A stretch of DNA of 27,691 bases from a virus. Numbering within the stretch: position 1 is the first letter of the stretch; each line of letters starts with the position of its first letter. The stretch is taken from IMG/VR virus record IMGVR_UViG_3300028829_005696, positions 1 to 27,691 of that record, one strand, 5' to 3'. A program made the translations under genes and the position numbers. Shown here piece after piece: positions 6,349 to 19,655 of this stretch. The notes under the pieces were generated by a model. That model was not told the DNA's origin. It worked only from the letters and a program-made list of their open reading frames with translations, and did not search any database.

Positions 6349-6379
6349 ATTATATACATTTAATGTATATAGTTGTCAA
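6349..6379 (-). promoter_or_regulatory. Sigma70-type promoter for scaffold and coat genes
   Basis: On the minus strand TTGACA (6379-6374) is followed after 17 nt by TATATA (6356-6351); TATAAT lies two bases further on (6354-6349). This is the best promoter match in the window. The -35 overlaps the stop codon of the 83-aa gene, so the promoter begins a new unit for scaffold, coat and downstream virion genes. Confidence 0.7.
6352..6370. promoter_or_regulatory. 19-bp palindrome inside the scaffold/coat promoter, candidate operator
   Basis: ATATACATT (6352-6360) and AATGTATAT (6362-6370) are perfect inverted copies around one central base. The palindrome fills most of the spacer and the -10 element of the promoter, so a bound protein would block RNA polymerase. 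Its half-site TACATT/AATGTA is also the core of the larger palindrome next to the XRE repressor gene (19632-19655). Confidence 0.55.
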
Positions 6380-6627
6380 ACTTTTGACTTTTTGCCGGCG
6401 CATTTCCAACGCTTGCGTGAAAGCCTAAGCGGACTATTAGGGTTTTTGGCAGCTTTAGGGTGCTTTTTCATCTGGCCCTGACTGCGTGCACAGTATGCAT
6501 CGCCTTTCTTTGTGCCAGGTTTGACGCGGGGACCGCCGCCTTTAGCTTTACCCGCTTGCCCGTAGCTTACCTTTTTCCCAGTAGCCGTAATCTTAACTTT
6601 AGCTTTACCTTTTCGCGGTGTAGCCAT
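6376..6627 (-). CDS. Small basic Cys-containing phage protein, unknown function
   Basis: 83 aa, about a third Lys/Arg, with an N-terminus of Lys/Gly repeats (KGKAKVKITATGKKVSYG) and a C-terminal part with two Cys and the order GDAYCARSQG then SPLRLSRKRWKCAGKK. The pair YCARS ... LSRKRWKC recurs in small proteins near portal and scaffold genes of many marine and freshwater phages, to my recollection; the function is not established there. The charge suggests nucleic-acid binding, and the two Cys could form a disulphide or share a metal. The ATG follows the preceding stop by 2 nt; the ribosome site is weak, so coupling is likely. Confidence 0.7.
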   Translation of the reverse strand: MATPRKGKAKVKITATGKKVSYGQAGKAKGGGPRVKPGTKKGDAYCARSQGQMKKHPKAAKNPNSPLRLSRKRWKCAGKKSKV

Positions 6628-6629
6628 CG

Positions 6630-6818
6630 TTATTTTTTGTCGCCTGACATAGTTTTGTACATGTTTTTGTTGTGCGCGCCTTTGCCATTGTCGTGCATGG
6701 TTTCGTATTTCATTACTTTAGGCTTCATCATTGCATGCTTAGGTGAGCCACCTGTTGTTGGTTTGCCTGCTGTCTTTTTTTGTGCGCTTATCGCATAACC
6801 TTTATCTTTCATGTTCAT
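6630..6818 (-). CDS. Small Lys/Met-rich protein, unknown function
   Basis: 62 aa with AGGAG before the ATG at 6818, starting right after the portal stop. It is polar and rich in Lys, Met, Gly and Thr, with no hydrophobic core (for example GGSPKHAMMKPKVMKYETMH), so it is probably disordered or a partner-binding peptide. It lies between portal and the 83-aa basic gene and shares their direction. A role in head assembly or DNA packaging is a guess from position only. Confidence 0.6.
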   Translation of the reverse strand: MNMKDKGYAISAQKKTAGKPTTGGSPKHAMMKPKVMKYETMHDNGKGAHNKNMYKTMSGDKK

Positions 6819-6823
6819 ATCTC

Positions 6824-8929
6824 CTAGATATTAAAGTTTCGACTAATCATGTCCATCTGATGCTCAGCTATCCTTAGCTGATGGTCAGATTCTTTTATAG
6901 CAAGTTCGGCAGCAGTACGATCAGCCTCGTTCTGTGCCTCTTCAAGCCTGACAACTGCATTGGTTCGCATCATCATGGCCTCTTCTGCCATTTTTTCAGA
7001 TTCTTGCTTGAGCTTGCCGATTTGTATCATAAAATCGCCTTGCTGCTTCCTGGCTTGCAGCTGTAGTTTTTGCTGCTCAAGTTGCAATTTCTCTTGTTCA
7101 ACTTGCATTTGAGCTTGTAGCATTTGCTGCTGAGGATTTTGTTGCTGTGCAGCCTTTTGTTCCATTTCTTGCATGTACTCTTCAGACATCTGTTTGAGCT
7201 GCTGACCGCCTTTAATGTCAACATTATCAAGCAATACTGGTAAGCCTTTCTGCTCGATCATTCCTCTGAAGTTCTCGCTGATCTTCATAAGCTCAATAAT
7301 AGTTTGCAAAGACTTGTTTTTCTGTACGTCAAAGTTAGCACCAGCTCTTAATGAGACAAGCATATCGTTAGTGCTGTAGTTCATCATGACAGGCTTATCA
7401 GCTCTTGAATCATTAATAGTGACATACTCGCGCTTACCATCTTCTGTGACGATAGGAATAGTGCGCAGCGTGTTGTAATACTTTGGCATCAGGCTAACAA
7501 TAATATTCGCAACCTGATTAAGGGCCGACAAGTAATTTATGACATACGGCATTGCCGCATTGTTTGATTGTGTCGCGCCTTCAACAATCGCAACACCTGA
7601 TAATTGATTTTGATTAATACCTAGCGACGCATCATAGCTACCTAATATATGCTGTAGCGTTTGATCTTGTAGCTGATTAATCTGAGCGTAAGCAGGGTTT
7701 ATTTGTGACCTTGGGAAAATCTGTGGCGCTGGGTTTGGCGAACCATCGTCGCCTATATGCTGATAAACCAAAGCGGCCTTTGTTTTGCCTGGGTCTTTCC
7801 ATGCTTCGATAAATTCAGGCTGAAAGGGTAGCGCTTCGTTAGCAATCAAGACATCTGTTTGGCGCATGGAGATAATATCGTTCACCATGGCAGATGCTGT
7901 CAGGTTCTTAATGCGCTGAGCGTCAACAGCGTTATAAATGTATGGCCGTGTTGTTTGCTGCCCCTCAATAGTTACCGAGTTTCCATCAACAAAAACGATA
8001 GGCAAATAATCGAAAGTGGTCTCTTCTGGTTTTTCGAGCAGCGTATCTTCAACAAACTTGTATCTTATGATCTTTGTTTTTCTGCGCTTGGTGCGCTTTA
8101 AGATTTGTGGGGGCTCTGCAATGCTTTGCCAGTTAGCAATCATTTCGTCATATTCTGACTTCCACATTGAGTGCTCGGCATCTGGATTCATTGGATCAGA
8201 TACGAGATACATCGTTTCATACTCGTACTTTTTCTCGTAATAGTCAGCTATATAATAGATATCGCGCTTGGTGCTAATATCGTTATAAGACCATCTAAAA
8301 TTGCCATCAACTAAGGGGCTTTTCTTTATCTGCGAGAAATCTATATCGGGGTATTCAGCTTCTAGCTCATGACCATACTTGGGGACAAGCTGAAAGCAAA
8401 AATTGCCGTCTGCTTTTGAGGACTCTCTTGCAAGTGGATCAAAACCGCAAAGCTCAGGCTCAAAAACTTTTTCAAGCTTGATAACTTGTTTCATTGAGTC
8501 TTCATGTTCGTACTCGGTATAAACCTTAATGACAGAAAACCCACCCGAGAGCGTATCATTATATACAGGGTTAGCAATTTTGTGCTCATACTCCGAGCTA
8601 CAGAAAATAGAGCGTACATGACCTTGAACAACGTCCACTTGCTCCCAGCTGACGTTTTTACTTTGCGGCCTTACATCTATTTCAGGAACTTGCTTGGAGA
8701 ACTCGCCGCGTAACCGGCTGACATATGCCTCAACAACGTTAAGCTCCATAACCGGCTTTTCGTCACTTTGTAGGGCATCTTTGTCTTTTTTAAATAGAGA
8801 AGATTTATGCACGAAAGCCTTTAAGTTCTTAAAGCGCTCGATGTTTTCTCTGTTATAAGTGTATGAGTCCTCAACGCAATCTTTTATGCGAGAGACTTGT
8901 GAAGTATACTTTTCGCTCAATCTTTCCAT
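6824..8929 (-). CDS. Portal protein, P22 gp1-like
   Basis: 701 aa (P22 portal 725 aa). The N-terminal half contains the charged helical section and the conserved EVDVRPQ-like stretch (here VPEIDVRPQSKNVSW, residues about 80-94), the DTLSGGFSVIKVYTEYEH region near residue 125 and FDPLARESSKADGNFCF near 160-175. The C-terminal about 130 residues are a Gln/Glu-rich long helix (QQQNPQQQMLQAQMQVEQEK onwards), the barrel that in P22 reaches into the head. It forms the dodecameric ring that TerL docks to. It overlaps the terminase stop by 13 nt, the usual coupling for these two genes. Confidence 0.9.
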   Translation of the reverse strand: MERLSEKYTSQVSRIKDCVEDSYTYNRENIERFKNLKAFVHKSSLFKKDKDALQSDEKPVMELNVVEAYVSRLRGEFSKQVPEIDVRPQSKNVSWEQVDVVQGHVRSIFCSSEYEHKIANPVYNDTLSGGFSVIKVYTEYEHEDSMKQVIKLEKVFEPELCGFDPLARESSKADGNFCFQLVPKYGHELEAEYPDIDFSQIKKSPLVDGNFRWSYNDISTKRDIYYIADYYEKKYEYETMYLVSDPMNPDAEHSMWKSEYDEMIANWQSIAEPPQILKRTKRRKTKIIRYKFVEDTLLEKPEETTFDYLPIVFVDGNSVTIEGQQTTRPYIYNAVDAQRIKNLTASAMVNDIISMRQTDVLIANEALPFQPEFIEAWKDPGKTKAALVYQHIGDDGSPNPAPQIFPRSQINPAYAQINQLQDQTLQHILGSYDASLGINQNQLSGVAIVEGATQSNNAAMPYVINYLSALNQVANIIVSLMPKYYNTLRTIPIVTEDGKREYVTINDSRADKPVMMNYSTNDMLVSLRAGANFDVQKNKSLQTIIELMKISENFRGMIEQKGLPVLLDNVDIKGGQQLKQMSEEYMQEMEQKAAQQQNPQQQMLQAQMQVEQEKLQLEQQKLQLQARKQQGDFMIQIGKLKQESEKMAEEAMMMRTNAVVRLEEAQNEADRTAAELAIKESDHQLRIAEHQMDMISRNFNI

Positions 8930-10506
8930 GACTCAAAGCTTTTCTTGGTAAAAGCTTGATAGCCCTCTATCTTCCTGACAGAGTTTTTTCGGTCAGTGAA
9001 CTGTGTCACCGTGCCGTCTATCAATGCTAGTTTTACCGCATCGTAGCAAGTATCGGCGATATCATCGTGCCGGTGGCTATCATTTGCGGTGATTTTGCCC
9101 ATATGTTCAACACACATATTGGCATGTTTTGATCCAGTATGCAACGTGACCCTATATGAAGCTATATATTGTTGCATTTCGATAAAGCGCGATGCCTTGC
9201 TCCCTGAGGCTTTAGTACGCTCGATTTCCATAATTCTTAGGCCTGGAATTGTTTTTAAGACGGAAACAAGCGTTACACCTGTGCTTTTTTTCTCAATAGC
9301 AATCATGCCCGGCTTAACCGCAAAGCGCATGCAGGCATTGTAGAAAGATAGAAACTCGTCTTGCAAGTCTTTTGGCTCTATCCATATTTCCACACAGTCT
9401 AACCAGTGCAGCGCATAAGTGTCTGTTTCGTACTCGCCAACCTTGGTTTTATATAAACCCCAAAAGCTAAAAACAGTCGGGTCATTATATGTTTTATCAG
9501 TTTCTGCGGTATCGGCAGTAATGAATGTGTGCGTGATGTTATCAGGTATAGAGTCAAGGAAAGGTAAAAACCAGTCTTTCTTAAAGAGGCCACCACCAGC
9601 AGGAACAGGGTTTTGTTGATACTGACTTGCAAACTCGTACGGCATCTTTTCTTTCATCTTCAAAAGCATATCGCTTGTATGCAAGTCTGGCATCAGCGCA
9701 TTGCCGGCAGTATCTAACGCGGGAATAATAAGAGGCGTCCATGGCTTAACATCCATGCCTTGAGTAAGGTTCTCAATAAGGTCGTCTTCATGAAGGGCTT
9801 GCCCAATAGCAAGAATAGGCGTTAATTTTGGGTTATTAACACGGCTTGCGAGTGTTTCAAACCACCATGATTTGATGCGCTGTCGATATTTTTCGCTGGT
9901 GACTTCTGATGGTTTATGAATATCGTCAATAATGATAGCACCACCAAAACATTCTACATCAGGTATTCCAGCACCACGCCCTGTAATTGTTCCCTCCGCG
10001 CCAACGCCAACAATTGCACCACCAGTATTAAATTCAAAATTATCACTTGCTCTACTATCTCCTACAAGTTCCAGACCAAAGAGTTGTTTGTACTCAGGCA
10101 GGTTAACAATTCGCCTAATTGTCTTCGTGTTTTTAACAGCGCTTTCCCAGTTATATGATACATATATAAAGCTACTATCAGGGTAATTAGCCAATGCCCA
10201 GCATATATAGTTAATAAAAATCTCTGTCTTGCCGTACCGTGGCGGGCATCGTATCGCAAGTCTATGAGCGCTTTCATCATGCCTAATGCTAGACTCTAGG
10301 ACTGGTACAACCTGATCTATAAAGCTCGTGCGGTTCTGTCCTCTGCGTACAATGAATTCACGACCAGTGCGAAGTTTATAAAAGTACTTTGTAAACTCAA
10401 GTAAGCTAGACTTTAATACCTCCGGATCAGGAACATCACGCATCATTTTTGCTTCAAAATTGCTCTTTTTTTCAAGATTTGATATTCGTGTAAGCAAATT
10501 TTGCAA
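8917..10506 (-). CDS. Terminase large subunit (packaging ATPase-nuclease)
   Basis: 529 aa. The ATPase domain shows Walker A CPPRYGKTE (residues 87-95) and Walker B GAIIIDDIHKP (about 189-199). The RNase H-like nuclease shows FITADTAETD (first Asp about 332), IAIEKKSTG (Glu about 405) and HRHDDIADT (about 479-486). The motor pumps DNA through the portal and cuts the concatemer; P22-type enzymes package by headful. The annotated start is TTG at 10506 with AAGGAA just upstream inside the end of the previous gene; an ATG 20 codons in is the alternative start. All key motifs are intact. Confidence 0.93.
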   Translation of the reverse strand: MQNLLTRISNLEKKSNFEAKMMRDVPDPEVLKSSLLEFTKYFYKLRTGREFIVRRGQNRTSFIDQVVPVLESSIRHDESAHRLAIRCPPRYGKTEIFINYICWALANYPDSSFIYVSYNWESAVKNTKTIRRIVNLPEYKQLFGLELVGDSRASDNFEFNTGGAIVGVGAEGTITGRGAGIPDVECFGGAIIIDDIHKPSEVTSEKYRQRIKSWWFETLASRVNNPKLTPILAIGQALHEDDLIENLTQGMDVKPWTPLIIPALDTAGNALMPDLHTSDMLLKMKEKMPYEFASQYQQNPVPAGGGLFKKDWFLPFLDSIPDNITHTFITADTAETDKTYNDPTVFSFWGLYKTKVGEYETDTYALHWLDCVEIWIEPKDLQDEFLSFYNACMRFAVKPGMIAIEKKSTGVTLVSVLKTIPGLRIMEIERTKASGSKASRFIEMQQYIASYRVTLHTGSKHANMCVEHMGKITANDSHRHDDIADTCYDAVKLALIDGTVTQFTDRKNSVRKIEGYQAFTKKSFESWKD

Positions 10507-10509
10507 AAG

Positions 10510-10953
10510 CTATTCCTTTTTAAAGATGTCAATAAGATCGCATTCTAGTGAGTTAAAAACATCCACAATTGACTTGTGACAATAATTGATCACTTCTTCC
10601 ATTGATCCGTGCGATTTACAAGTATCATAAATATTTTTGTAATTTGTAATACTTATTATCTTGTTATACTCACGCCTACTAATGTGTTGATGATCGTTTA
10701 TTCTTCTTCTAACATCGTCATAACCATCAAGTTCTCCCTCAAAGATATTAATTAACTTATTTTGTAGATTAGGATCAACATCCAAAATACGTTCATAAAA
10801 ATTCTTAACAGCTTTCTCGCAATATAAAGCCGAAATGCTGATAGTAGAAAGGTTGTTTTGCATAAATTTTTTGCAAAATGCTCGTGTTTCTTTAATACTT
10901 TTATAGTAGTACAAATAGTACCCATAAGACTTAATCTTTTTCAGCAATTCCAT
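10510..10953 (-). CDS. Unknown protein immediately upstream of terminase
   Basis: 147 aa, helical and rich in Lys, Ile, Tyr and Asn, with no membrane segment. An AAGGA site precedes the ATG at 10953, and its stop is 3 nt from the TerL start. Position suggests the small terminase subunit (TerS), but the sequence shows no obvious DNA-binding helix-turn-helix; the N-terminus (KIKSYGYYLYYYKSIKETRA) is aromatic. It contains three Cys (residues about 27, 45 and 113). Codon use is more AT-rich than in the virion genes, like the accessory genes, suggesting it may be an inserted moron instead of TerS. Confidence 0.65.
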   Translation of the reverse strand: MELLKKIKSYGYYLYYYKSIKETRAFCKKFMQNNLSTISISALYCEKAVKNFYERILDVDPNLQNKLINIFEGELDGYDDVRRRINDHQHISRREYNKIISITNYKNIYDTCKSHGSMEEVINYCHKSIVDVFNSLECDLIDIFKKE

Positions 10954-10990
10954 TTGCTTTCCTTAATGCTCGAAAGATTATCAATATATA

Positions 10991-11134
10991 CTATTTTTTC
11001 TTTTTTTTCTTTGGCTTTTTTTTAGCCTCAGTTAGGGCAATAGCTACTGACTGGTTCTGTGGGTAACCTTCCTTCTTAAGTTTCTTAATGTTACTACTAA
11101 TTGTTTTTTGTGACTTTCCTTTCTTAAGAGGCAT
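10991..11134 (-). CDS. Small Lys-rich phage protein, [10 protein letters not shown] family
   Basis: The ATG at 11134 is chosen because AAGGATAG lies just before it; a longer frame beginning at 11188 would run into the tRNA-Asn gene. The 47-aa product starts [19 protein letters not shown], continues with [17 protein letters not shown] and ends in a poly-Lys tail. This pattern is very widespread in phage genomes, usually next to portal or terminase genes; no function is established to my knowledge. The strongly basic tail suggests nucleic-acid contact. Confidence 0.75.
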
Positions 11135-11155
11135 ATTACTATCCTTATAATATGT

Positions 11156-11231
11156 TGGCTCCCCGCCTTGGACTCGAACCAAGGACACAGTAATTAACAG
11201 TCACACGCTCTACCAGCTGAGCTAGCGGGGA
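11156..11231 (-). tRNA. tRNA-Asn(GUU)
   Basis: Complete cloverleaf on the minus strand: acceptor TCCCCGC/GCGGGGA (7 of 7), D-stem GCTC/GAGC with loop AGCTGGTA, anticodon loop CTGTTAA (anticodon GTT), T-arm CTTGG TTCGAGT CCAAG, discriminator G and an encoded CCA (11158-11156). The anticodon stem TGTGA/TTACT has one G-U and one T-T mismatch at the outer end, weaker than in host tRNAs. A sigma70-type promoter ends 13 nt upstream. It may supply Asn decoding to this AT-rich phage or be part of an attachment site. Confidence 0.93.
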
Positions 11232-11243
11232 ATAATGGTCTAA

Positions 11244-11272
11244 ATGTTAACAGCGATGATTAGGCTAGTCAA
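11244..11272 (-). promoter_or_regulatory. Promoter for tRNA-Asn and downstream minus-strand genes
   Basis: Minus strand TTGACT (11272-11267), 17-nt spacer, TAACAT (11249-11244). Initiation would fall about 6 nt before the tRNA 5' end. The transcript could continue into the 47-aa, 147-aa and terminase genes, as no terminator is visible. Confidence 0.5.
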
Positions 11273-11346
11273 AGAAATGATTTTAAAGTAAGCCCAAAAT
11301 GTGTCCACCGACTACGCACAATGCCAGACACAACAAACGGCCTAGT

Positions 11347-11382
11347 TTGTTCTGAAATTTCGGGCTCCATATTCTAACACAC
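11347..11382 (+). promoter_or_regulatory. Weak plus-strand promoter with CTAACACAC start
   Basis: TTGTTC (11347-11352), 17 nt, TATTCT (11370-11375), then CTAACACAC at 11374-11382. The same CTAACACAC follows two other plus-strand promoters (11514-11541 and 19659-19687). Its transcript would run over the CCGCATGCGG repeats. The -35 is poor, so this is tentative. Confidence 0.3.
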
Positions 11383-11393
11383 TTTTATTGATA

Positions 11394-11431
11394 GTTACCC
11401 GCATGCGGTTACCGGTTACCCGCATGCGGTT
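11394..11431. repeat. Tandem 17-bp direct repeats, each with a CCGCATGCGG palindrome
   Basis: GTTACCCGCATGCGGTT occurs exactly at 11394-11410 and 11415-11431 (21-bp period, two helical turns). Each copy centres on the perfect 10-bp palindrome CCGCATGCGG and is much more GC-rich than its surroundings. Spacing on one face of the helix suggests cooperative binding of a dimeric regulator or an iteron-type site. It lies in the about 340-nt gene-free stretch between the tRNA-Asn and the plus-strand gene cluster. Confidence 0.6.
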
Positions 11432-11513
11432 TATTCACCTAGTTCGGATTTTATGCTTCTTATTATTTGATAACTTTATATTCACAATTTCTGTGGAAAA
11501 GTGTGTGGATAGC

Positions 11514-11541
11514 TTGACTGATTGAATAGTTATGCTATTAT
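11514..11541 (+). promoter_or_regulatory. Promoter for the 11574-12615 plus-strand cluster
   Basis: TTGACT (11514-11519), 16-nt spacer, TATTAT (11536-11541). The spacer and -10 hold an imperfect inverted repeat (ATTGAATAG ... CTATTATTCAAT), a possible operator. The presumed start point falls near CTAACACAC at 11552, and GGGGAAATTAAA precedes the first ATG. The leader closely matches that of the 19719 operon. Confidence 0.55.
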
Positions 11542-12250: not shown

Positions 12251-12431
12251 ACCATCAATAGAAGGAATCGGATACGGATATGGATACGGAAACGTATTCG
12301 GAGACGAATATGGAAACGGATACGGAGACGGATATGGAAACGGATACGGAGACGGATATGGAGACGGATACGGAAACGTATTCGGATACGGAAACGGATA
12401 TGGAAGCGGAGACGGAAACGGATATGAATAA
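12235..12431 (+). CDS. Gly/Tyr/Asp tandem-repeat protein
   Basis: 65 aa from the ATG at 12235, overlapping the end of the previous gene by 16 nt. A short head, MSKLIKPSIEGIG, is followed by about 50 residues of GYGN/GYGD-type dipeptide repeats to the stop. I recall phage proteins with the same KLIKPSIEG head and a low-complexity GYGDGYG tail of variable length in a similar operon position; their role is unknown. Gly-Tyr repeats can phase-separate, bind surfaces or self-associate. The ribosome site is weak (GGATGG), so expression may depend on coupling. The frame is chosen over the competing open frame because of the non-repeat head. Confidence 0.6.
12264..12423 (+). repeat. Hexanucleotide tandem repeat array
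   Basis: About 160 bp built from GGATAT/GGATAC and GGAAAC/GGAGAC units, so that a purine-rich GGA recurs every 6 bp. Every plus-strand frame but one and several minus-strand frames stay open across it. One frame gives Gly-Tyr/Gly-Asp, another Thr-Glu-Thr-Asp-Met-Glu, and the opposite strand gives Pro-Tyr/Pro-Phe or Ser-Val. Unit gain or loss by slippage changes length without shifting frame, as six is a multiple of three. Confidence 0.9.
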
Positions 12432-12615
12432 TAAGATGAGTAACATAGGAGGAGCGCGCCCGGGTTCAGGCCCAAAAGTTAAAGGACCGTACAAGCGTAG
12501 GAGCGTATGCATCGATGACAAGATGTATGACCTAGTTAAGGCATATGGTGATGGAAACTTTAGTGTTGGGATTAGGAAGCTTTGTAAGTTGTTGGAGATG
12601 ACTAGCGGAAGCTAG
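12424..12615 (+). CDS. Small basic DNA-binding-like protein (GGARPGSGPK type)
   Basis: 63 aa from the ATG at 12424, overlapping the repeat gene's stop by 8 nt; a GGAG in the repeat lies upstream. The head NIGGARPGSGPKVKGPYKRR is the Gly/Pro/basic start found on many small phage proteins with a following helix-turn-helix or ribbon-helix-helix unit (here SVCIDDKMYDLVKAYG ... SVGIRKLCKLLEM, residues about 29-58). It may be a repressor-like regulator or a terminase-small-like protein. The in-frame upstream stretch of the repeats is open for 48 more codons (from 12280), so an N-terminally extended Thr/Glu/Asp-repeat form is possible. The last codons overlap the tRNA-like element on the other strand. 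Confidence 0.65.
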   Translation: MNNKMSNIGGARPGSGPKVKGPYKRRSVCIDDKMYDLVKAYGDGNFSVGIRKLCKLLEMTSGS

Positions 12616-12786: not shown

Positions 12787-12966
12787 CTACTTCTTAATCT
12801 TTTCTAGCCTTTCACCAACTCTTTGCTGAAGCTCAACGTCATTAGATGCTAAGGCGTATTTATACAACATTATCAACCTATCATCCTTAAATCCATCGAT
12901 GGATCGTCTGATGTGATTTATGGTTAGTATAGGTTTTTTTACTGAATCATTGTCTTTGTTATCCAT
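12787..12966 (-). CDS. Small charged protein coupled to the recombinase gene
   Basis: 59 aa, starting at the ATG that overlaps the recombinase stop as TAATG. The sequence has NHIRRSIDGFKDDRLIMLYK and YALASNDVELQQRVGERLEKI, a helical, charged protein ending in Lys-Lys. No family is recognised. Coupling to a tyrosine recombinase makes a recombination directionality factor (excisionase) or regulator conceivable, but the sequence lacks an obvious winged-helix pattern. Coding is well supported by the overlap and the clean frame. Confidence 0.65.
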   Translation of the reverse strand: MDNKDNDSVKKPILTINHIRRSIDGFKDDRLIMLYKYALASNDVELQQRVGERLEKIKK

Positions 12967-13565
12967 TATGCTACTCCTAGTTCTTCTTCAAAATTTTCAA
13001 ACCACCCATCAAACTTCTTAGATGAATGCTGCGTATAGTGAGCTGTGCTTTCCGGCTTAACATGGCCTAACCATGTCTGTATAAACCTAAGCGCCCTATC
13101 TTCGTTCTCGATCAAGTAATGACCGCACGAATGCCTCATCATATGTGAGTGCAGTTTCATGTAATCAAGGTTTGCATGATCTCCGGCTTTTCTAATCATC
13201 CTGTTAATACCACCTGCAGTAATATACCTGTGAGTTCGATGGTTTATAAAAATATACTTTGAGTCCATCCAGTTTTTATCTTGTAGCTTACGCAAGAAGT
13301 CTATCTGGCCTAAGGATAGTTTTTGAGTAGATGTCTTTCCTGACTTAAGCCTGGTGACTGTTAACAGTCTGCGATTGAAATCAATCTGATCCCACTTCAT
13401 GGTTGTTAGCTCAGTTACGCGCAAACCATGCTTTAACATGAAGAAGATTATCCACTTGTTACGCTCGGGATACATTTCAAATTTTTCACATGACTTGATG
13501 AGCTGTACTGATTCATCTTTATATAGATATTCTCGCTGACGATAGTCAGTGTTCTTTTTACGCAT
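12966..13565 (-). CDS. Short tyrosine recombinase (integrase/FimB-size)
   Basis: 199 aa; GAGG is 7 nt before the ATG. It holds a complete catalytic domain: HGLRVTELTTMKWDQID (catalytic Arg about residue 50), LKSGKTSTQKL (Lys in the beta-hairpin), HSHMMRHSCGHYL (His-x-x-Arg), WLGHVKPES (second His) and the nucleophile in AHYTQHS. It lacks the arm-binding and SAM-like core-binding domains of lambda-type integrases, so it matches FimB/FimE-size enzymes, which invert or resolve short DNA segments. It could integrate the phage or flip a segment. TGCAC ACAAA GTGCA just upstream is a possible control or crossover site. A dimer resolution role is also possible. Confidence 0.85.
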   Translation of the reverse strand: MRKKNTDYRQREYLYKDESVQLIKSCEKFEMYPERNKWIIFFMLKHGLRVTELTTMKWDQIDFNRRLLTVTRLKSGKTSTQKLSLGQIDFLRKLQDKNWMDSKYIFINHRTHRYITAGGINRMIRKAGDHANLDYMKLHSHMMRHSCGHYLIENEDRALRFIQTWLGHVKPESTAHYTQHSSKKFDGWFENFEEELGVA

Positions 13566-13941: not shown

Positions 13942-13948
13942 AATTTAA

Positions 13949-14339: not shown

Positions 14340-14743
14340 ACGCCTATTAATTTTTTATAGAAATCTACAGTGAACACTTGAAAAGCCCTACGAATATACT
14401 CTTTCTTTGCTTGGTTAAACAATTGAAACACCATTTCATTAGTAAAAACGCCGTATGTCGCGTTTGTATCTTCAGTCATTGTAGCTAATAAGTCAACATT
14501 TATTGTTTTAATATTTCCATTGGGCAATTTTTTTTGGTGTACGTATATCCATGTAATGTTTGCAATATTTAAAAGTTTTTTGGCTATTTCTATTTTGCTG
14601 AAGATAGAACGGTTACCATCCTCTATATATAAGGTATAAAGCTTCTGTAATTTCTTGGCTTTGGCAGCCATAGATAAGTTAAGAATGAATTTTAGAAGCA
14701 GCATGGTAAACATGAAGGATAAAAGCAGGTATATTGTTTTCAT
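14336..14743 (-). CDS. Membrane-anchored protein, unknown
   Basis: 135 aa. Residues 3-24 are a hydrophobic helix (TIYLLLSFMFTMLLLKFILN) without a clear cleavage site, so it is an N-terminal anchor; the following part begins with Lys-rich helix (AKAKKLQKLY), placing the C-terminal domain in the cytoplasm by the positive-inside rule. The soluble part is mixed alpha/beta, with aromatic and Lys-rich stretches (YIRRAFQVFTVDFYKKLIGV). Both ends overlap neighbours by 4 nt. The family is not recognised; a superinfection-exclusion or lysis-timing role is possible for such phage membrane proteins but is not shown. Confidence 0.65.
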   Translation of the reverse strand: MKTIYLLLSFMFTMLLLKFILNLSMAAKAKKLQKLYTLYIEDGNRSIFSKIEIAKKLLNIANITWIYVHQKKLPNGNIKTINVDLLATMTEDTNATYGVFTNEMVFQLFNQAKKEYIRRAFQVFTVDFYKKLIGV

Positions 14744-14985
14744 AAGTAGTCTATCTCGCAGTAATTAGATATTGTTTTTTGCACGCATTCATTTAAAGCT
14801 TTTAACCCTTCTTTCATGGTGTTAAAAGGCAAACATATACAAAAAAATAAATCTTCCTTCTGATCATACGCATCAACCTTCAATTCGTATTGCATAGTTT
14901 TACCTTTTGCGATCTCTATCATGACATATGTAAAGCCTGGGCACTCGTGCGTAATGTTGTCTATAGCGTCTAGTATTTCTTTCAT
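14740..14985 (-). CDS. Small acidic cytoplasmic protein, unknown
   Basis: 81 aa, starting in the ATGA overlap with the DUF5681-like gene. Alternating hydrophobic strands and a C-terminal helix (FTYVMIEIAKGKTMQYELKV, then FFCICLPFNTMKEGLKALNE) suggest a small alpha/beta fold. Five Cys are present, none in a metal-binding arrangement. Its function cannot be told from the sequence; the operon arrangement is the main information. Confidence 0.6.
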   Translation of the reverse strand: MKEILDAIDNITHECPGFTYVMIEIAKGKTMQYELKVDAYDQKEDLFFCICLPFNTMKEGLKALNECVQKTISNYCEIDYL

Positions 14986-15386
14986 TTATTACCTTCCAGA
15001 ATCTTGATCCTTTCGTCAAGCTCACCAAGTTTATGTAGCTCAGACATGGTCTTAGTTAGTGAAGCAATAGTCTTACCCTGGTCATCAGGTAAGTCGCCTC
15101 GAAGAGACTTTAACATAACTTCCTCAATTATCTTTTCAAGGTCAGCACTAGATGCAATCTTTGTTATATCTATGTTCAGATTCTCTGAGTATGACCTTGG
15201 ATTTGGGTATCCCTTATCCAGAACTATCTTCGCAGCAGTCATATCGCCTTCAAGAGCTTGCGCTATTACAGACATGAAAACTGACTCTAAGTTGTCCTCT
15301 AAAAGCTTCTTAATGTGAAGTCTTTTGTCCCCACTTCCCTTTGGTCTTCCGTTTGGGTTACCTGATTGTCCTGGCTTAAAAGGCAT
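14982..15386 (-). CDS. DUF5681-type protein, candidate small terminase-like subunit
   Basis: 134 aa beginning MPFKPGQSGNPNGRPKGSGD, the signature N-terminus of DUF5681 proteins. The rest is helical (HIKKLLEDNLESVFMSVIAQ; then SADLEKIIEEVMLKSLRGDL) with a C-terminal coiled-coil-like end. Many DUF5681 proteins lie beside terminase genes and are proposed DNA-binding small subunits; here the gene is 4.5 kb from TerL, which weakens that. CAGGAATT gives a ribosome site, and a strong promoter lies at 15421-15448. It heads an operon of four overlapping genes. Confidence 0.7.
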   Translation of the reverse strand: MPFKPGQSGNPNGRPKGSGDKRLHIKKLLEDNLESVFMSVIAQALEGDMTAAKIVLDKGYPNPRSYSENLNIDITKIASSADLEKIIEEVMLKSLRGDLPDDQGKTIASLTKTMSELHKLGELDERIKILEGNK

Positions 15387-15420
15387 ATTGTTTAATTCCT
15401 GTTTGTAACAATGTATTAAT

Positions 15421-15448
15421 AGTATACAAGATTAAGCAAAACAGTCAA
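15421..15448 (-). promoter_or_regulatory. Promoter for the DUF5681-type operon
   Basis: Minus strand TTGACT (15448-15443), 16-nt spacer, TATACT (15426-15421). It ends about 35 nt before the 134-aa gene and begins 3 nt after the stop of the upstream 82-aa gene. The sequence TGTATACTATT around the -10 recurs at 22925-22935 upstream of the 51-aa gene. Confidence 0.6.
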
Positions 15449-15450
15449 TT

Positions 15451-15699
15451 TTAAGCGTATACCCTAACAAAACCTTTTATCTGCGAATCATATTTTAACC
15501 TAATTGAATCATCATCTGAGTCTGCGTACTCATACGTAACCTCTTCATCTTGTATATCAACCTTCGTATCAGACATTCTAAGCAAAACAAAAATTGTAAA
15601 TGCAAACGTTATCAATATATAAGGAGTGTTAACCCTAAAGAAAAACATAAAAGACAGCTCCCACATAAAAAAGCATATAAAAACGGGATGTTTAAACAC
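15451..15699 (-). CDS. Two-span membrane protein with acidic tail
   Basis: 82 aa from a GTG with GAGGAG 8 nt upstream. Residues 4-22 (HPVFICFFMWELSFMFFF) and about 25-42 (PYILITFAFTIFVLLRM) form two adjacent membrane helices. The remaining 40 residues are acidic and soluble (QDEEVTYEYADSDDDSIRL). The small size and two spans recall holin or superinfection-exclusion peptides, but the family is not recognised. It follows another two-span peptide gene. Confidence 0.6.
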   Translation of the reverse strand: MFKHPVFICFFMWELSFMFFFRVNTPYILITFAFTIFVLLRMSDTKVDIQDEEVTYEYADSDDDSIRLKYDSQIKGFVRVYA

Positions 15700-15722
15700 G
15701 TTTATGTCTCCTCTGCTATTTA

Positions 15723-15881
15723 TTATTTTTTTGTTATTTTCTTTATTAAGAAATCAATAATGAAGCACGCTCCTAGTGCTATTAATACTTTCTCTCCGAA
15801 ATTATGTACGTTATAGAATCCAACTATGATTAAAATTGTTGTCAATATAAGCCATAAATTAAGTTTGATTTTTATTGTCAC
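15723..15881 (-). CDS. 52-aa two-span membrane peptide overlapping the antitoxin-like gene
   Basis: Starts at a GTG at 15881 inside the last codons of the Phd-like gene (23-nt overlap), with TTAGGG about 9 nt upstream. Two hydrophobic segments (LNLWLILTTILIIVGFY and KVLIALGACFIIDFLI) flank a short hinge; the ends are Lys-rich. No ATG is in frame, so the start is less certain. Its position relative to an antitoxin-like gene invites the idea of a membrane-acting toxin, but this is untested. Confidence 0.5.
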   Translation of the reverse strand: MTIKIKLNLWLILTTILIIVGFYNVHNFGEKVLIALGACFIIDFLIKKITKK

Positions 15882-16050
15882 GAATAGTTGCCCTAAGTTC
15901 TTTAATTTTGCCCTTAAGCTTGTTGAACTCTTTTGCGCTCGTTATAACGTGAGTTTCTTTAGAGTACTTTGTAATAACTACAGGCTTAGTTAATGCGCAG
16001 TCAAGTATGTCAGCTGTTTTTAAATGCAGCTGAGTAGCTGAGTATTTCAT
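15859..16050 (-). CDS. Phd/YefM-like antitoxin homologue
   Basis: 63 aa: KYSATQLHLKTADILDCALT (residues 2-21), then KPVVITKYSKETHVITSAKEF. This follows the Phd/YefM N-terminal DNA-binding fold: a short strand, a helix with a regularly spaced Leu/Ile face, a strand pair V-V-I-T, and a second helix. The usual C-terminal toxin-neutralising tail is short (KGKIKELRATIRDNK). CTGGAG precedes the ATG. No RelE/Doc-type toxin is adjacent. Orphan Phd-like genes in phages may act as anti-toxin defence or as a regulator. Fold call moderate, function inferred. Confidence 0.6.
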   Translation of the reverse strand: MKYSATQLHLKTADILDCALTKPVVITKYSKETHVITSAKEFNKLKGKIKELRATIRDNKNQT

Positions 16051-16061
16051 ATATTCTCCAG

Positions 16062-16244
16062 TTAAAAGTTTAATAAAAACTTAGGTTTGTGCTCGCAACC
16101 ATCAAGTATGCTTTTAAATTCAGGAGCATATATAATATTGTCCATTCTGTCATGCATTTCATCAGTTGAATTAGAATCCATTATGTAGTCTATCATTTTA
16201 AGCAAGTAGCAAATTTTGCTTTCATCATCCATTTTATCTTTCAT
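16062..16244 (-). CDS. Small acidic protein, unknown
   Basis: 60 aa, with the start overlapping the upstream stop (ATGA). It is helical with Asp/Met-rich segments (MDDESKICYLLKMIDYIMDS) and ends CEHKPKFLLNF. No motif is recognised. It is third in a chain that starts at the 16605 gene and proceeds into the antitoxin-like gene. Confidence 0.6.
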   Translation of the reverse strand: MKDKMDDESKICYLLKMIDYIMDSNSTDEMHDRMDNIIYAPEFKSILDGCEHKPKFLLNF

Positions 16245-16438
16245 TTACTGTCCCTGTTTTTCTTTTGCTTCTTAAGCATTACTAGATCGATCCTTCCTGG
16301 TTCGTCAGTGTCCAAATGGTATTCGTACTTTCCTGGTACTGCTAATTTAGTGTAGTCAGCAAACCAGGCAACCACATTACCCCTCATATCCTTAACATAA
16401 ATGTTCTCTCCGGATTTTACTAAGTTAACCTTGATCAA
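16241..16438 (-). CDS. Small beta-rich protein, unknown
   Basis: 65 aa. It begins with TTG at 16438, overlapping the previous TGA stop (TTGA), a usual arrangement for coupled starts; the first in-frame ATG would remove the conserved-looking N-terminal strand. The sequence MIKVNLVKSGENIYVKDMRG and VAWFADYTKLAV suggests a small beta-barrel; the end is Lys/Arg-rich. The family is unknown. Confidence 0.55.
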   Translation of the reverse strand: MIKVNLVKSGENIYVKDMRGNVVAWFADYTKLAVPGKYEYHLDTDEPGRIDLVMLKKQKKNRDSK

Positions 16439-16605
16439 TGTCCAAAATACTCCCCAAAGAAATCTAAAATAACCATCCCTTCTGTAGTAACTACTACTTT
16501 ATCTAAGGGTTTATACTTATCGCCCTTAGGTAAATTAACTGTTAAATTTTCACCGTGCTTTTCCATAACGTTTTTAATGATATCGTGGAACTTCTCTATT
16601 TTCAT
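16435..16605 (-). CDS. Small protein, first gene of the 16.6-15.7 kb operon
   Basis: 56 aa, ATG at 16605 with GAGGGTAA about 7 nt upstream. It has an amphipathic N-terminal helix (MKIEKFHDIIKNVMEKHGEN) followed by strands (LTVNLPKGDKYKPLDKVVVT, MVILDFFGEYFG). There is no known motif. It is directly downstream of the minus-strand promoter at 16628-16656, so it heads the run of small genes continuing into the antitoxin-like gene. Confidence 0.65.
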   Translation of the reverse strand: MKIEKFHDIIKNVMEKHGENLTVNLPKGDKYKPLDKVVVTTEGMVILDFFGEYFGH

Positions 16606-16627
16606 GAATATTTACCCTCTTTATTCT

Positions 16628-16656
16628 AATATAACACATGATTATGTTTTGATCAA
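16628..16656 (-). promoter_or_regulatory. Minus-strand half of a divergent promoter pair
   Basis: Minus strand TTGATC (16656-16651), 17-nt spacer, TATATT (16633-16628). The -35 is part of a small palindrome (TTGATCAA at 16649-16656). It drives the 16605 gene leftward. Confidence 0.55.
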
Positions 16657-16657
16657 C

Positions 16658-16699
16658 ATATACATTTCGCTTTACTTGGCGAATCATAATTGATAATAT
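16658..16699 (+). promoter_or_regulatory. Plus-strand half of the divergent pair, with operator-like repeats
   Basis: TTTACT (16671-16676), 17-nt spacer, TAATAT (16694-16699). TTCGC/GCGAA (16666-16670 and 16679-16683) form an inverted repeat across the -35. ATATACATT at 16658-16666 is identical to one half of the palindrome in the late promoter at 6352-6360. Confidence 0.5.
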
Positions 16700-16741
16700 T
16701 AATTATAAGTAAATTATTAGTAACTTAAAAGGAGTATTAAA

Positions 16742-16960
16742 ATGAACGCAAATGGAGCAGATTTATTATTTACATGCAATGAAAAGGCTATTGAGCATTA
16801 TTGCAATGTCTTCGGAGCACCAAACTGCAAAACAACAACAGAATACGAGCATTTCATAGAAACAGAAATACCAGCAATAGAATTAGAGAGTGGCAAGGAA
16901 TACTACGTTATTCCGAGACTAAGAATGTTGAGAGCGCCTAAATCTTCCTTCCGTAGATGA
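16742..16960 (+). CDS. Small protein, unknown
   Basis: 72 aa with AAGGAG 10 nt before the ATG. It is mixed alpha/beta with Cys at residues 12, 21 and 29 and an acidic centre (EYEHFIETEIPAIELESGKE), ending basic (RLRMLRAPKSSFRR). No family is recognised. It is first of three plus-strand genes expressed from the divergent promoter. The 64-nt gap after it holds a repeated GTAAGCAATG, the second copy being the start of the next gene. Confidence 0.6.
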   Translation: MNANGADLLFTCNEKAIEHYCNVFGAPNCKTTTEYEHFIETEIPAIELESGKEYYVIPRLRMLRAPKSSFRR

Positions 16961-17024
16961 TACGGCGCCAACAACACATACTACGTAAGCAATGGAATTA
17001 TATTTAAATACAAGGATGTAAGCA

Positions 17025-17225
17025 ATGAAATTTCCAATATACGACACTAACTTAATGAAAATTAAAGACAAAAACCTTATACTGTTTGAAAACAACAAGA
17101 AAATATTTGCACAAGCAATGCTTGAAGCAGGAAAAGAAAAAACAGAAGAATTACTAAGAGATATAAGGGATAAAGATGATGAATTTCAAACAAGCATACA
17201 ATTACCTAGCAAAAAAAAACTATAA
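17025..17225 (+). CDS. Small Lys/Glu-rich protein, unknown
   Basis: 66 aa, AAGGATG 7 nt before the ATG. A central charged helix (FAQAMLEAGKEKTEELLRDI) is probably amphipathic or coiled-coil; the C-terminus is Lys-rich (PSKKKL). It overlaps the next gene by 50 nt in another frame. Function unknown. Confidence 0.6.
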   Translation: MKFPIYDTNLMKIKDKNLILFENNKKIFAQAMLEAGKEKTEELLRDIRDKDDEFQTSIQLPSKKKL

Positions 17226-17370
17226 GTATAAAGGAAGATCTATAACTTATAGAACCATTAGAACAATGGTAGACAACGGGTATTTTAATACTGATCAATG
17301 TGTTTGTGGCAATAAGTTAATACCTGTTAGTGAACTTGATTCAAAAATAAAAAAACAACACGAAGAATAA
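17176..17370 (+). CDS. Small basic protein with CxC motif, unknown
   Basis: 64 aa, starting within the previous gene after AAGGGATAAAG. The N-terminal half is a helical, aromatic-basic unit (NFKQAYNYLAKKNYKYKGRS) that looks like a small helix-turn-helix with TYRTIRTMVDNGYF as recognition part. CVCGN near residue 42-46 is the only Cys cluster. It may be an excisionase-like or other small DNA-binding protein. It converges on the RusA gene with only 3 nt between stops. Confidence 0.55.
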   Translation: MMNFKQAYNYLAKKNYKYKGRSITYRTIRTMVDNGYFNTDQCVCGNKLIPVSELDSKIKKQHEE

Positions 17371-17373
17371 CAA

Positions 17374-17835
17374 TTACTTTAATCCAAAGTTTTTAAACCT
17401 ATGGTCAACGTTAAGCTTACTCTTCATATTAGGGTAAGCTTCTATCTCTATAATATCTTCTGTATGATATCGTTTTTCAATTGAGCATTTAATAACCTGC
17501 TTATCATCTTTATAGGTAATGCCGTTCATTCCATCGAGTATGCTTTTTAAACAATTATCTATATCAGGTGTAACAGTAGGCATAATATCTCCTTGTATAG
17601 CAGCCTCTGTACGACTTTTTGTCCAGCTAGAGGGCGTCTTTATTTTAACAATTATATTTACCGTCACAGGGCCTTCTATAGCTTTAATATGATTAGTTTG
17701 CATGTGTATCATTGCATAAGCACCGATATCAGCTTCAAACTCTTTAGTTTTTTTTGGTGTAAAAAATGATTTTGTCTTGGACGAGTATCTAGGGCGCTCT
17801 TTACCAACGACTTTAATTGGTATGACCATCCTCAT
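17374..17835 (-). CDS. rusA: RusA-family Holliday junction resolvase
   Basis: 153 aa (E. coli RusA 120 aa). Core motifs: N-terminal IPIKVVGKERPRYSSK, central TPDIDNCLKSILDGMNG (Asp at about residues 91 and 93, Lys 97, Asp 101) and YKDDKQV (Asp 110/111). These match the catalytic D70, D72, K76 and D91 cluster of RusA. The dimeric enzyme cuts four-way junctions and in lambdoid phages substitutes for host RuvC during replication and packaging. The start is ATG at 17835 with AAGGAC upstream; an ATG two codons in is possible. It is the last gene of the replication operon. Confidence 0.9.
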   Translation of the reverse strand: MRMVIPIKVVGKERPRYSSKTKSFFTPKKTKEFEADIGAYAMIHMQTNHIKAIEGPVTVNIIVKIKTPSSWTKSRTEAAIQGDIMPTVTPDIDNCLKSILDGMNGITYKDDKQVIKCSIEKRYHTEDIIEIEAYPNMKSKLNVDHRFKNFGLK

Positions 17836-17853
17836 AATATCCAGTCCTTGGAT

Positions 17854-18036
17854 CTAAATTAGTGGCGCCGCGATGTCTGATTGAGGTGACACAAGGAATC
17901 CATTCACAGCATCCTGCTGATCTTGTCGTTGACACTGAAGACGCGACGCTTGTTTATAATATATATCTATTGGCTAATGACCATCAATGGATAATATCTG
18001 TAAAAAACATTCATCACTTAAAATTATTTTATTCAA
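17854..18036 (-). pseudogene. Interrupted reading frame between the replication gene and RusA
   Basis: One minus-strand frame runs from a TTG at 18036 to a TAG at 17854 but has an in-frame TAG at 17974. The upstream part reads NKIILSDECFLQILSIDGH; the downstream part begins PIDIYYKQASRLQCQRQDQQ, continues with a Gln/Asp-rich stretch and ends DIAAPLI. The downstream part has no good start. The final stop is 18 nt before RusA. On the opposite strand 17862-18119 is open (85 codons from GTG) but lacks a ribosome site. Possibilities are a nonsense-broken gene, amber read-through, or a non-coding stretch. The 17860-17960 segment is clearly more GC-rich than its neighbours. Confidence 0.35.
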
Positions 18037-18040
18037 TATT

Positions 18041-18913
18041 TTATTTAGAACATAAACTGGACAATTTAACAGGGGGCTTAGATCTTTTGTTTGAAATCTT
18101 GTTGCCTTGTGACTTGTAAAATGGAACAGTGCTTTTTAATTCCCCTGATCGGGCCTTGTAGCCCCGTGACGAGGATATCTCTGTGTGAGGTATCATATCG
18201 TCTAGCCATCTTTCATTGTTCAAGTACGTGGCTGGATTTGGGATATACTGCTTTGAGTTATGTTTCCATACGGCGTCTTGTCTTTTAGGAATGTCATCCA
18301 TGACAAGTGCTTTATTTTTTTTGCTTAACCTTTTCCATGATCTCTGCGCTTGTTTCTTGCCAACCTTCTTTGGGTACTTACCCCAAAAAACAAAAAAGCT
18401 GCTGTCACCATCATCGACAGATGATGATGTATTTGTTTTAGTTTTTTCTTTTTTATTAATTATATTATTTGTAGGTGCTGTTTTACCGTTGCCCGGATAA
18501 TCCGTTGCCCGGGTTTTCAGTGGTGCGGTCACATGTTCTTGATTACATTTAACCGCACTACTGATTTTCAGTGCCCCGGTGCCGTTAATAACTTTGTCAC
18601 GATATTCGTTTCCATTTTTTACAATTATGCAACTATTTCCAAAAGCACCGCTTCTTTTCCTGTCTTGAAAATATGCTATTAAGTAATTTTCATTTAAAAA
18701 CTTCATCGCTGCATCAAGCTTATCTCGCCCAACACCGAAATGTTTTCTTAGTTGTGATTTGTTTACTGTCCAATCATTCGGCAAACTAATCAAATAACAA
18801 TAAACTGATAAAGCCAGTGGGTTAGATATTGTTTGAAGAACAAAATTAGGTATAATCGTAAAAGGAATTTCTTCCTTTATTAATGAGTTGAAGTCTTGTT
18901 TTTCTACTGACAT
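18041..18913 (-). CDS. Replication initiation/organiser protein with winged-helix domain
   Basis: 290 aa. An N-terminal helix-turn-helix unit spans about residues 15-90: IPNFVLQTISNPLALSVYCY, DWTVNKSQLRKHFGVGRDKL, MKFLNENYLIAYFQDRKRSG. This is the arrangement of phage replisome organisers. After a low-complexity linker rich in Lys, Thr and Ser comes a C-terminal unit, FFVFWGKYPKKVGKKQAQRS, with IPNPATYLNNERWLDDMI, the Trp/Pro/Arg pattern of lambda O- or DnaT-like replication proteins that recruit the helicase loader. AAGGAG lies before the ATG. It is followed by RusA, so this is the replication operon. No separate helicase or helicase loader is visible in the window. Confidence 0.75.
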   Translation of the reverse strand: MSVEKQDFNSLIKEEIPFTIIPNFVLQTISNPLALSVYCYLISLPNDWTVNKSQLRKHFGVGRDKLDAAMKFLNENYLIAYFQDRKRSGAFGNSCIIVKNGNEYRDKVINGTGALKISSAVKCNQEHVTAPLKTRATDYPGNGKTAPTNNIINKKEKTKTNTSSSVDDGDSSFFVFWGKYPKKVGKKQAQRSWKRLSKKNKALVMDDIPKRQDAVWKHNSKQYIPNPATYLNNERWLDDMIPHTEISSSRGYKARSGELKSTVPFYKSQGNKISNKRSKPPVKLSSLCSK

Positions 18914-18958
18914 TAAAATCTCCTTAGTATAAAGATGTTTGGTTTGATTTGATTAAGG

Positions 18959-18990
18959 CACCTCAAGGATTGGGGTGTTTTAATTTTGAC
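18959..18990 (+). terminator. Intrinsic terminator-like hairpin on the plus strand
   Basis: CACCTC (18959-18964) pairs with GGGGTG (18972-18977; one G-T) around a 7-nt loop, followed by TTTTTAATTTT. On the plus strand it would stop transcripts that run antisense to RusA and the replication gene from the 16742 cluster. The stem is short, so efficiency may be modest. Confidence 0.4.
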
Positions 18991-19068
18991 TTGAAAAAGC
19001 CTTTGATTTTTTGATGGTTTTTTTTGCATGACTTTCCCTGTTAAATTCCTTTTCAACAGTTTCACCTA

Positions 19069-19100
19069 GTTGATTTCTGAGCTTGACTTGAGAAATCAAC
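19069..19100. repeat. 10-bp perfect inverted repeat
   Basis: GTTGATTTCT (19069-19078) and AGAAATCAAC (19091-19100), 12 nt apart. No T run follows on either strand, so it is better read as a protein-binding site or origin element than as a terminator. Confidence 0.6.
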
Positions 19101-19171
19101 CAAAGTAATATTTAGGCATCTGGCGTCTTAAATCAGATAGACCTATAAAACTGTTGGGTTTTAAAAATGTA

Positions 19172-19205
19172 GTCACTCATATTAACCTTAGTTGATTTGA
19201 GTGAC
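19172..19205. repeat. 8-bp perfect inverted repeat containing a GTTGATTT copy
   Basis: GTCACTCA (19172-19179) and TGAGTGAC (19198-19205) with 19 nt between; the loop includes GTTGATTT (19191-19198), shared with the repeat at 19069. Likely a second site for the same regulator. Confidence 0.5.
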
Positions 19206-19245
19206 AACCGTTTTTCCTTACTTGTGTTAGAGCGGTAAGAGTTTG

Positions 19246-19275
19246 AGGCCGCACTGAAATGCACCTTTGCGGCCT
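19246..19275. terminator. Hairpin downstream of the repressor gene
   Basis: AGGCCGCA (19246-19253) pairs perfectly with TGCGGCCT (19268-19275) around a 14-nt loop, 6 nt past the repressor stop. On the plus strand an AT-rich stretch ending TTTATTTTT follows; on the minus strand there is no T run. Likely the end signal of the repressor transcript or a two-way stop. Confidence 0.45.
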
Positions 19276-19281
19276 TAAACA

Positions 19282-19551
19282 TTATTTATTTTTCGTAGAA
19301 TACTGATCAAGAGTTCTAGGGTCATCAAAATTTAAACCTAAAAAATAATCGTATCCATACTTCTTATCATTATCAAATGAAAAATTAACCAAATCTTCTA
19401 TATGAGATACATGAGGTATCGCATTACCCCGCTCCCAATTACCCAAAGTTGATACGGATATCTCCATTATTTCTGAGAACTTTTCTGTAGAAAGACCAAA
19501 TTCTTGCCTAAGGCCCCTCACGTTTCTAGCAAATGCGCTTAACTTTTTCAT
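19282..19551 (-). CDS. XRE-family repressor-like regulator
   Basis: 89 aa, GAGG 5 nt before the ATG. The helix-turn-helix covers about residues 8-43: ARNVRGLRQEFGLSTEKFSE, ISVSTLGNWERGNAIP, the classic pattern of lambda cI/Cro and P22 C2 type domains (the TLGNWERG recognition and turn segment). The C-terminus (about 45 residues, YFLGLNFDDPRTLDQY) is too short for a LexA-like self-cleavage domain, so it would not be cleaved on SOS induction in the cI way; it is Cro-sized or a compact repressor. It is expressed away from the 19632-19655 palindrome, with early genes on the other side, the usual switch arrangement. Confidence 0.85.
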   Translation of the reverse strand: MKKLSAFARNVRGLRQEFGLSTEKFSEIMEISVSTLGNWERGNAIPHVSHIEDLVNFSFDNDKKYGYDYFLGLNFDDPRTLDQYSTKNK

Positions 19552-19631
19552 ATAAACCTCGTGATTAATAACTATTATTTGAAGTTAACACACAAACATA
19601 TAAGTATCAACTATTTACATATAAAACCTAA

Positions 19632-19655
19632 TTTTTTACATTTAAATGTAAAAAA
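19632..19655. promoter_or_regulatory. 24-bp perfect palindrome, candidate operator of the XRE regulator
   Basis: TTTTTTACATTT (19632-19643) and its exact complement AAATGTAAAAAA (19644-19655). It lies 3 bp upstream of the -35 of the plus-strand early promoter and within the divergent region of the repressor gene. Half-site-like TTTACAT copies flank it at 19612-19618 and 19659-19665, the latter being the -35 itself. Confidence 0.7.

Follow-up and report, generated by a model that had tools for sequence, protein, structure and literature searches.

How phages match the synthesis of scaffold protein to the supply of coat protein is an old question. The virus record IMGVR_UViG_3300028829_005696 (IMG/VR) raises it in concrete form: what lies upstream of its scaffold start codon, and what might be controlled there? 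The record belongs to one uncultured phage, and its whole length of 27,691 nt (38% GC) was analysed and is called the window here. Comparison with relatives suggests that the scaffold and coat genes are probably served by a separate promoter and by two control layers stacked on each other, an operator palindrome and a leader RNA. The genes and transcript concerned are:

4189-5385, minus strand: gene of the coat (major capsid) protein; match to phrog_283, major head protein, E 1e-6
5439-6194, minus strand: gene of the 251-aa scaffold protein; match to phrog_8865, head scaffolding protein, E 3e-6
6195-6342, minus strand: predicted 5' leader of the scaffold mRNA, its start placed 7 nt below the -10 hexamer

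Comparing the regions upstream of the relatives' scaffold genes showed that the stretch separating promoter from start codon holds a conserved block, which the initial annotation had missed. In the window this leader RNA begins ∼70 bp downstream of the promoter palindrome described below and lies directly before the scaffold start. The parts of the whole 5' leader are:

6199-6279, minus strand: conserved structured leader RNA (model R1), pseudoknot-hairpin-pseudoknot, ending beside the scaffold start
6289-6305, minus strand: leader hairpin AAAGCC-ACGTA-GGCTTT, the stem of which changes in relatives to AGCT/AGCT, TAGCC/GGCTTA and AAGC/GCTT
6264-6275, minus strand: pseudoknot 1 stem 1, CTGA (6275-6272) with TCAG (6267-6264); covarying
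6254-6271, minus strand: pseudoknot 1 stem 2, loop GCCA (6271-6268) with TGGT (6257-6254); covarying, outside the alignment model
6208-6226, minus strand: pseudoknot 2, CCGTGACGGGGTGATAGTC, GAC (6222-6220) with GTC (6210-6208); nearly invariant
6200-6204, minus strand: Shine-Dalgarno sequence GAGGG, 3 nt past pseudoknot 2

A DNA pattern taken from the last leader module, CCGTGACGGGG-N2-4-ATWGTC, matches 83 viral contigs, and in some 57 of these the match lies immediately upstream of a scaffold-like gene. Stem 1 of the H-type pseudoknot occurs as CGCA/TGCG, CCCA/TGGG, CTGA/TCAG, CCGA/TCGG, CGGA/TCCG and GCCA/TGGC, and the loop pairs across an A-rich linker with a downstream strand as GCTA/TAGC, GCCA/TGGC, GTTA/TAAC, CCTA/TAGG or TCCA/TGGA. 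Under a strict parse all 8 of 8 pairs are present in 32 of 53 distinct leaders compared with 4% of shuffled leaders, and the window leader itself forms 8/8. An alignment of 18 sequences that leaves out the window is paired in 144 of 144 cells, with two-sided changes at 8/8 pairs (0/500 shuffles). The covariance model R1, which has stem 1 as its only structure and was trained on an alignment (A2) containing neither the window nor the distant phage L015, recovered window positions 6199-6279 with 75.1 bits (E 4.9e-18; 889 kb searched) and found L015 (E 3.5e-13), which the DNA pattern had missed. When all three helices were considered in 61 leaders, 96.8% of cells were paired, with 118 two-sided compensatory changes (0/500 shuffles); slid registers paired at most 37% of cells. 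RNAalifold, unaided, returned stem 1 and the last pseudoknot stem (GAC/GTC), and in L015 the latter carries the compensatory pair GAU/AUC. A second hairpin was tested against plain shuffles, and the weak difference (98% versus 86%) does not allow us to count it as proven. The compensatory changes establish the fold at the level of sequence comparison. The stems vary freely, and fixed letters are confined to the linker, the loop and the last module.

The gene context was compared as well. In 58 of the 61 matches the next open reading frame begins close to the end of the match, at most 4 nt before it and at most 13 nt after it. R1 matches once in each of 21 leader-bearing records (31-57 kb), apart from two with tandem modules, in which it matches twice; the window record has one match only. 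A P22-type portal is encoded in 20 of these 21 records and also in the window (PF16510, E 9.5e-91). In L036, L090 and several others (e.g. L057, L116) a second pseudoknot/hairpin copy lies 5' of the conserved pair. No Rfam family matches the leader: only two tRNAs were found in the window, and the leader region searched alone stayed far below threshold. P22 gave no R1 match, and the leader is absent in three Vibrio or Pseudomonas phages with related coats that were checked (vB_ValP_FGH, 41E34.2 and PAE2). The pattern was also sought in bacterial genomes, and we discarded this candidate distribution: its 109 exact matches in 257 Gb are close to chance by a rough estimate, none was seen at a scaffold gene and their R1 score was at most 30.5 bits. 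Our literature search on phage scaffold leader RNA found nothing relevant. The leader thus appears to be a previously uncatalogued structured RNA common to dozens of other phages.

Pseudoknot 2 ends at 6208 and GAGGG begins at 6204, so that a stabilised fold would lie in the ribosome landing site. Short conserved pseudoknots, variable in their stems and fixed in their linkers, fit a translational operator when they precede a gene that has to match the coat supply with its product, and translational control of scaffold and coat is the likely role of the leader. In our reading the predicted ∼150-nt leader folds into tandem pseudoknots with a hairpin between them, the last ending 3 nt before the Shine-Dalgarno sequence, and a factor bound to the fold would set the frequency of ribosome starts on scaffold and, via coupling, also on coat. 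The most economical ligand would be unassembled scaffold protein, giving an assembly-linked feedback; a small molecule or host factor may act instead. A quite plausible alternative, to which we attach substantial weight while stopping short of calling it probable, is that the leader, instead of serving scaffold feedback, is a small-molecule riboswitch, a ribosome-recruiting element or the target of a host protein. In form, compact pseudoknots that have A-rich third strands and adjoin the Shine-Dalgarno sequence are similar to known translational riboswitches, and some phages carry the leader in tandem copies. Against this alternative, only linker, loop and last-module letters are fixed while the stems vary, and every gene context seen is scaffold/coat, a hint at a signal linked to assembly.

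Upstream of the leader lies a promoter that faces the scaffold gene (start 6194):

6374-6379, minus strand: TTGACA, -35 hexamer of the scaffold/coat promoter; L004, L006, L007 and L009 also have it here
6349-6354, minus strand: -10 hexamer TATAAT, 19-bp spacer; an alternative -10, TATATA at 6351-6356, has a 17-bp spacer
6351-6371, no strand assigned: perfect palindrome TATATACATT-T-AATGTATATA, spanning spacer and -10; candidate operator

The initial annotation had called this the best promoter in the window, and TTGACA-N19-TATAAT (6349-6379) is indeed the sole exact match to both hexamers there (spacers 15-19). In L004, L006, L007 and L009 TTGACA is retained while the leader downstream diverges. 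Among 58 distinct relatives, 57% have TTGAC within 150 nt above the leader and 50% have a match to at least 10 of the 12 promoter positions above it, compared with 12% in shuffled sequence in both cases; we therefore regard an own scaffold/coat promoter as common in the leader-bearing group. For the window we predict an independent, near-consensus sigma-70 promoter, from which, we infer, the mRNA would start just upstream of the scaffold gene.

Two other features were noted above scaffold promoters of relatives. Perfect DnaA boxes (TTATCCACA/TGTGGATAA) form clusters in L054, L013, L065, L100 and L015 and, as judged by eye, likewise in L093; these lie immediately above the scaffold promoter, at 40-170 nt from the leader. 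There are 12 such boxes in 57 upstream regions, against 0.45 predicted by the remainder of the same contigs, and the window has no such cluster; a replication origin or a DnaA-controlled late promoter is a possible explanation. In L010 (1952-2103), TTGACA and a long dyad, GTATACATT-N9-AATGTATAC, are followed by a tRNA gene (2031-2103), and this unit lies upstream of the scaffold promoter proper.

The palindrome over the promoter has a counterpart in the early region:

19632-19655, no strand assigned: TTTTTTACATTTAAATGTAAAAAA, a perfect palindrome and probably the XRE-region operator

Both had been located by the initial annotation, and both proved exact, beyond chance and at promoters. ATATACATT-T-AATGTATAT is present at 6352-6370 and extends by one base on either side (6351-6371; arms of 10, one central base), and the early repeat has arms of 12 and no spacer. 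They are the two strongest perfect inverted repeats of the window. A search of the window for TACATT-N0-4-AATGTA, of the kind the annotation had proposed, gave these 2 matches only, with 0.03 expected from whole-window dinucleotide shuffles. Shuffling in 250-nt blocks, which preserves local AT-richness, gave 0.245 expected perfect repeats with arms of at least 10 and gaps of at most 4, compared with 2 seen (P ∼ 0.02). Looser matches to either core (up to 3 mismatches) occur at chance level in the window, and no wider regulon is visible there.

The 6351-6371 palindrome is identical in the sister phages L004/L005, and in the sister it is intact although the sequence just below differs by indels. 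At this promoter L006/L008 carry the dyad TATACAC-N5-GTGTATA, with the spacing changed by 2 bp (p 0.003 versus shuffles of that segment); in L007 and L009 the promoter is present and a comparable dyad is absent. We considered the palindrome as a general part of scaffold promoters and rejected this, as a dyad with p < 0.05 was found in only 4 promoter segments (53 sequences, window included), 3 of which belong to the window and its close relatives. Since it is largely confined to the window's clade, the dyad is not a by-product of promoter function. MerR-type activation, with the dyad inside the 19-bp spacer, was judged unlikely: the dyad centre is spacer position 13, off the middle, and no MerR gene was seen. 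A terminator or attenuator of read-through RNA was likewise rejected (9 AU-rich pairs, -6.1 kcal/mol, without a long U run).

It is unlikely, in our estimation, that the palindrome is incidental, an AT-rich extended -10 with chance symmetry. TATA-rich promoter sequence is prone to symmetry, ∼0.25 such repeats are expected per window of this local composition, and most relatives use the promoter without a dyad. Against this stand a perfect 21-bp repeat placed exactly over the promoter, its retention in the sister while the adjoining leader diverges, and the dyad of L006/L008. We favour the reading that both palindromes are probably operators, as predicted from their sequence and position; a dimeric DNA-binding protein on the scaffold site would then shut out RNA polymerase and silence the capsid genes, e.g. 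in a lysogen.

A candidate for such a protein is encoded beside the early palindrome:

19282-19551, minus strand: small XRE (HTH_3) protein gene, 89 aa (PF01381, E 1.5e-6, 28.6 bits, cut-off 23)
19614-19620, plus strand: extra half-site TTTACAT
19659-19665, plus strand: a further TTTACAT half-site, which overlaps the -35 of the early promoter running rightward (TTTACA-17-TAATAT)
16658-16666, plus strand: single ATATACATT, a half-site only, ATATGTATT in the sister and so unconserved

The XRE protein has its HTH_3 domain above the curated cut-off, is identical in the sister phage and is probably the lysogeny repressor. Palindrome and TTTACAT array lie between its gene (19551, minus strand) and the divergent early operon (19719, plus strand). 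Four of the seven TTTACAT copies in the window fall within 52 bp (19614-19665), at 19614, 19635, 19646 (reverse) and 19659, and the early half-site is therefore better written TTTACAT than TACATT. In the sister the site reads TTTTTTACATTTATATGTAAAAAA (other strand), and the central A-to-T change breaks the TACATT/AATGTA symmetry and leaves every TTTACAT copy unchanged. The early site is thus predicted to be an operator array with half-site TTTACAT and 4 central bases in the palindrome, and this palindrome probably belongs to XRE.

It is less clear that the XRE protein also reads the scaffold site. The initial annotation had proposed that one XRE protein binds 19632-19655, 6352-6370 and 16658-16666 through the same half-site and so couples early, accessory and virion genes. 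Part of this survives: the two palindromes are beyond chance and at promoters, they have the TACAT core in common, and two long repeats with a common 6-mer half-site appeared in 0/200 shuffles. The XRE gene adjoins the early site, where the half-sites are clustered, and the sister has both an identical XRE protein and an intact scaffold palindrome, although its near identity to the window means that it says little on conservation of a shared dyad. The half-sites, however, are not the same, being TATACAT-N3-ATGTATA at scaffold and TTTACAT-N4 at the early site, one base per half-site off; the 1-bp difference in spacing that the annotation had pointed out stands, as 3 versus 4 central bases. Its accessory site at 16658 is present but near chance (0.46 copies of this 9-mer expected in the window) and is lost in the sister, and on this comparison it should be dropped. 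The 2-bp re-spacing of the dyad in L006/L008 also speaks against a single repressor, as do ten larger leader-bearing contigs, each with an HTH_3 match, in which no dyad common to the XRE upstream region and the scaffold promoter was found. We consider the three-site model doubtful; XRE as reader of the scaffold palindrome is possible but less likely than not, albeit the first candidate.

Equally doubtful is a division between two regulators, XRE on the TTTACAT array and another phage or host DNA-binding protein on the scaffold-promoter dyad. The differences in half-site and spacing would be accounted for, and the window encodes further small putative DNA-binding proteins (15859-16050 and 12280-12615); nothing ties either protein to the scaffold-promoter site, and the core likeness to the XRE sites would have to be coincidence. 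The product of 15859-16050 (minus strand) is a Phd/YefM-type antitoxin-like protein (TIGR01552, above cut-off), identical in the sister and with no obvious toxin partner seen; it is possibly a DNA-binding regulator. The product of 12280-12615 (plus strand) is repetitive at its N-terminus (Thr/Glu/Asp) and continues with a basic, conserved segment, which we take to resemble a ribbon-helix-helix protein. It gave no family match, and its C-terminal part is 82% identical in the sister, where it exists as a 70-aa version without the repeat.

Taken together, the arrangement suggests that the capsid-building genes are under both transcriptional and translational control. A bolder reading, which we hold to be less likely than not, is that the leader is a widespread undescribed RNA sensor that would tie scaffold and coat synthesis to assembly in P22-type capsid modules, with unassembled scaffold as ligand. 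In the clade of the window the lysogeny repressor would, on this reading, silence the promoter above the sensor, and the capsid genes would be locked twice. Several points weigh against the favoured account of promoter, operator and leader. Half-site and spacing are not the same in the two palindromes. The 19-bp promoter spacer is long for sigma-70, and 17 bp is reached only with the poorer TATATA. Folded alone, the leader (-32.6 kcal/mol, z = -1.7) is not unusually stable by nested folding; this is expected for short pseudoknots, yet lends no support either. Covariation of pseudoknot 2 amounts to one compensatory change because the element is nearly invariant. No cultivated phage carrying the leader was found, and P22, for which scaffold feedback has been described, has a 13-nt gap and no such leader. 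Even so, a covarying RNA fold directly before the scaffold start in dozens of phages is a concrete cis-element for the matching of scaffold to coat, and if the promoter palindrome is an operator, a temperate phage would shut off its capsid genes at their own promoter, beyond early control and antitermination.

The window also encodes a terminase, a tyrosine integrase and a Sak4-like protein. The short integrase (12966-13565, minus strand) and its counterpart at the same place in L004 (574-1185) are only 30% identical amid DNA much of which is >90% identical, which indicates that the integration module was swapped. The sister record, IMGVR_UViG_3300022308_000003 (34,129 nt), is probably complete and circular, because its last 40 nt recur in its first part. 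The coat of L006/L008 is 79% identical to that of the window. tblastn with the window coat and XRE proteins gave no match among named phages, and coats of the relatives match those of Vibrio, Shewanella and Pseudomonas phages at 22-26% identity.

Among known systems, the P22-like late operon is closest in layout, with the gene order portal-scaffold-coat and a P22-type portal as in the window. In the Salmonella phages P22 and epsilon34 this operon is switched on by Q antitermination (PMC2629481), and the contrast drawn by the initial annotation would hold if the near-consensus scaffold/coat promoter predicted in the window is used. P22 has 13 nt between portal and scaffold and no leader, whereas the window has a long one. 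Lambdoid immunity operators (CI/C2 and Cro sites) likewise have a small helix-turn-helix gene facing away from an early operon, and over the promoters lie a palindrome and repeated half-sites. The lambda and P22 repressors act on early promoters; in the window, by contrast, a late structural promoter has a palindrome that is related to the early one without being identical, and the XRE protein has only 89 aa and no peptidase domain. Unassembled gp8 of P22 was reported decades ago to lower its own synthesis after transcription, a report that our literature search did not confirm. The logic would be the one proposed here, scaffold being made only while assembly consumes it, but the conserved RNA fold found in the window has no counterpart in P22. 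The leader of T4 gene 32, a phage autogenous translational operator built on a pseudoknot, differs from that of the window in its gene, in its fold and in lacking tandem modules, yet in both a pseudoknot precedes the start codon for a phage protein made in abundance.

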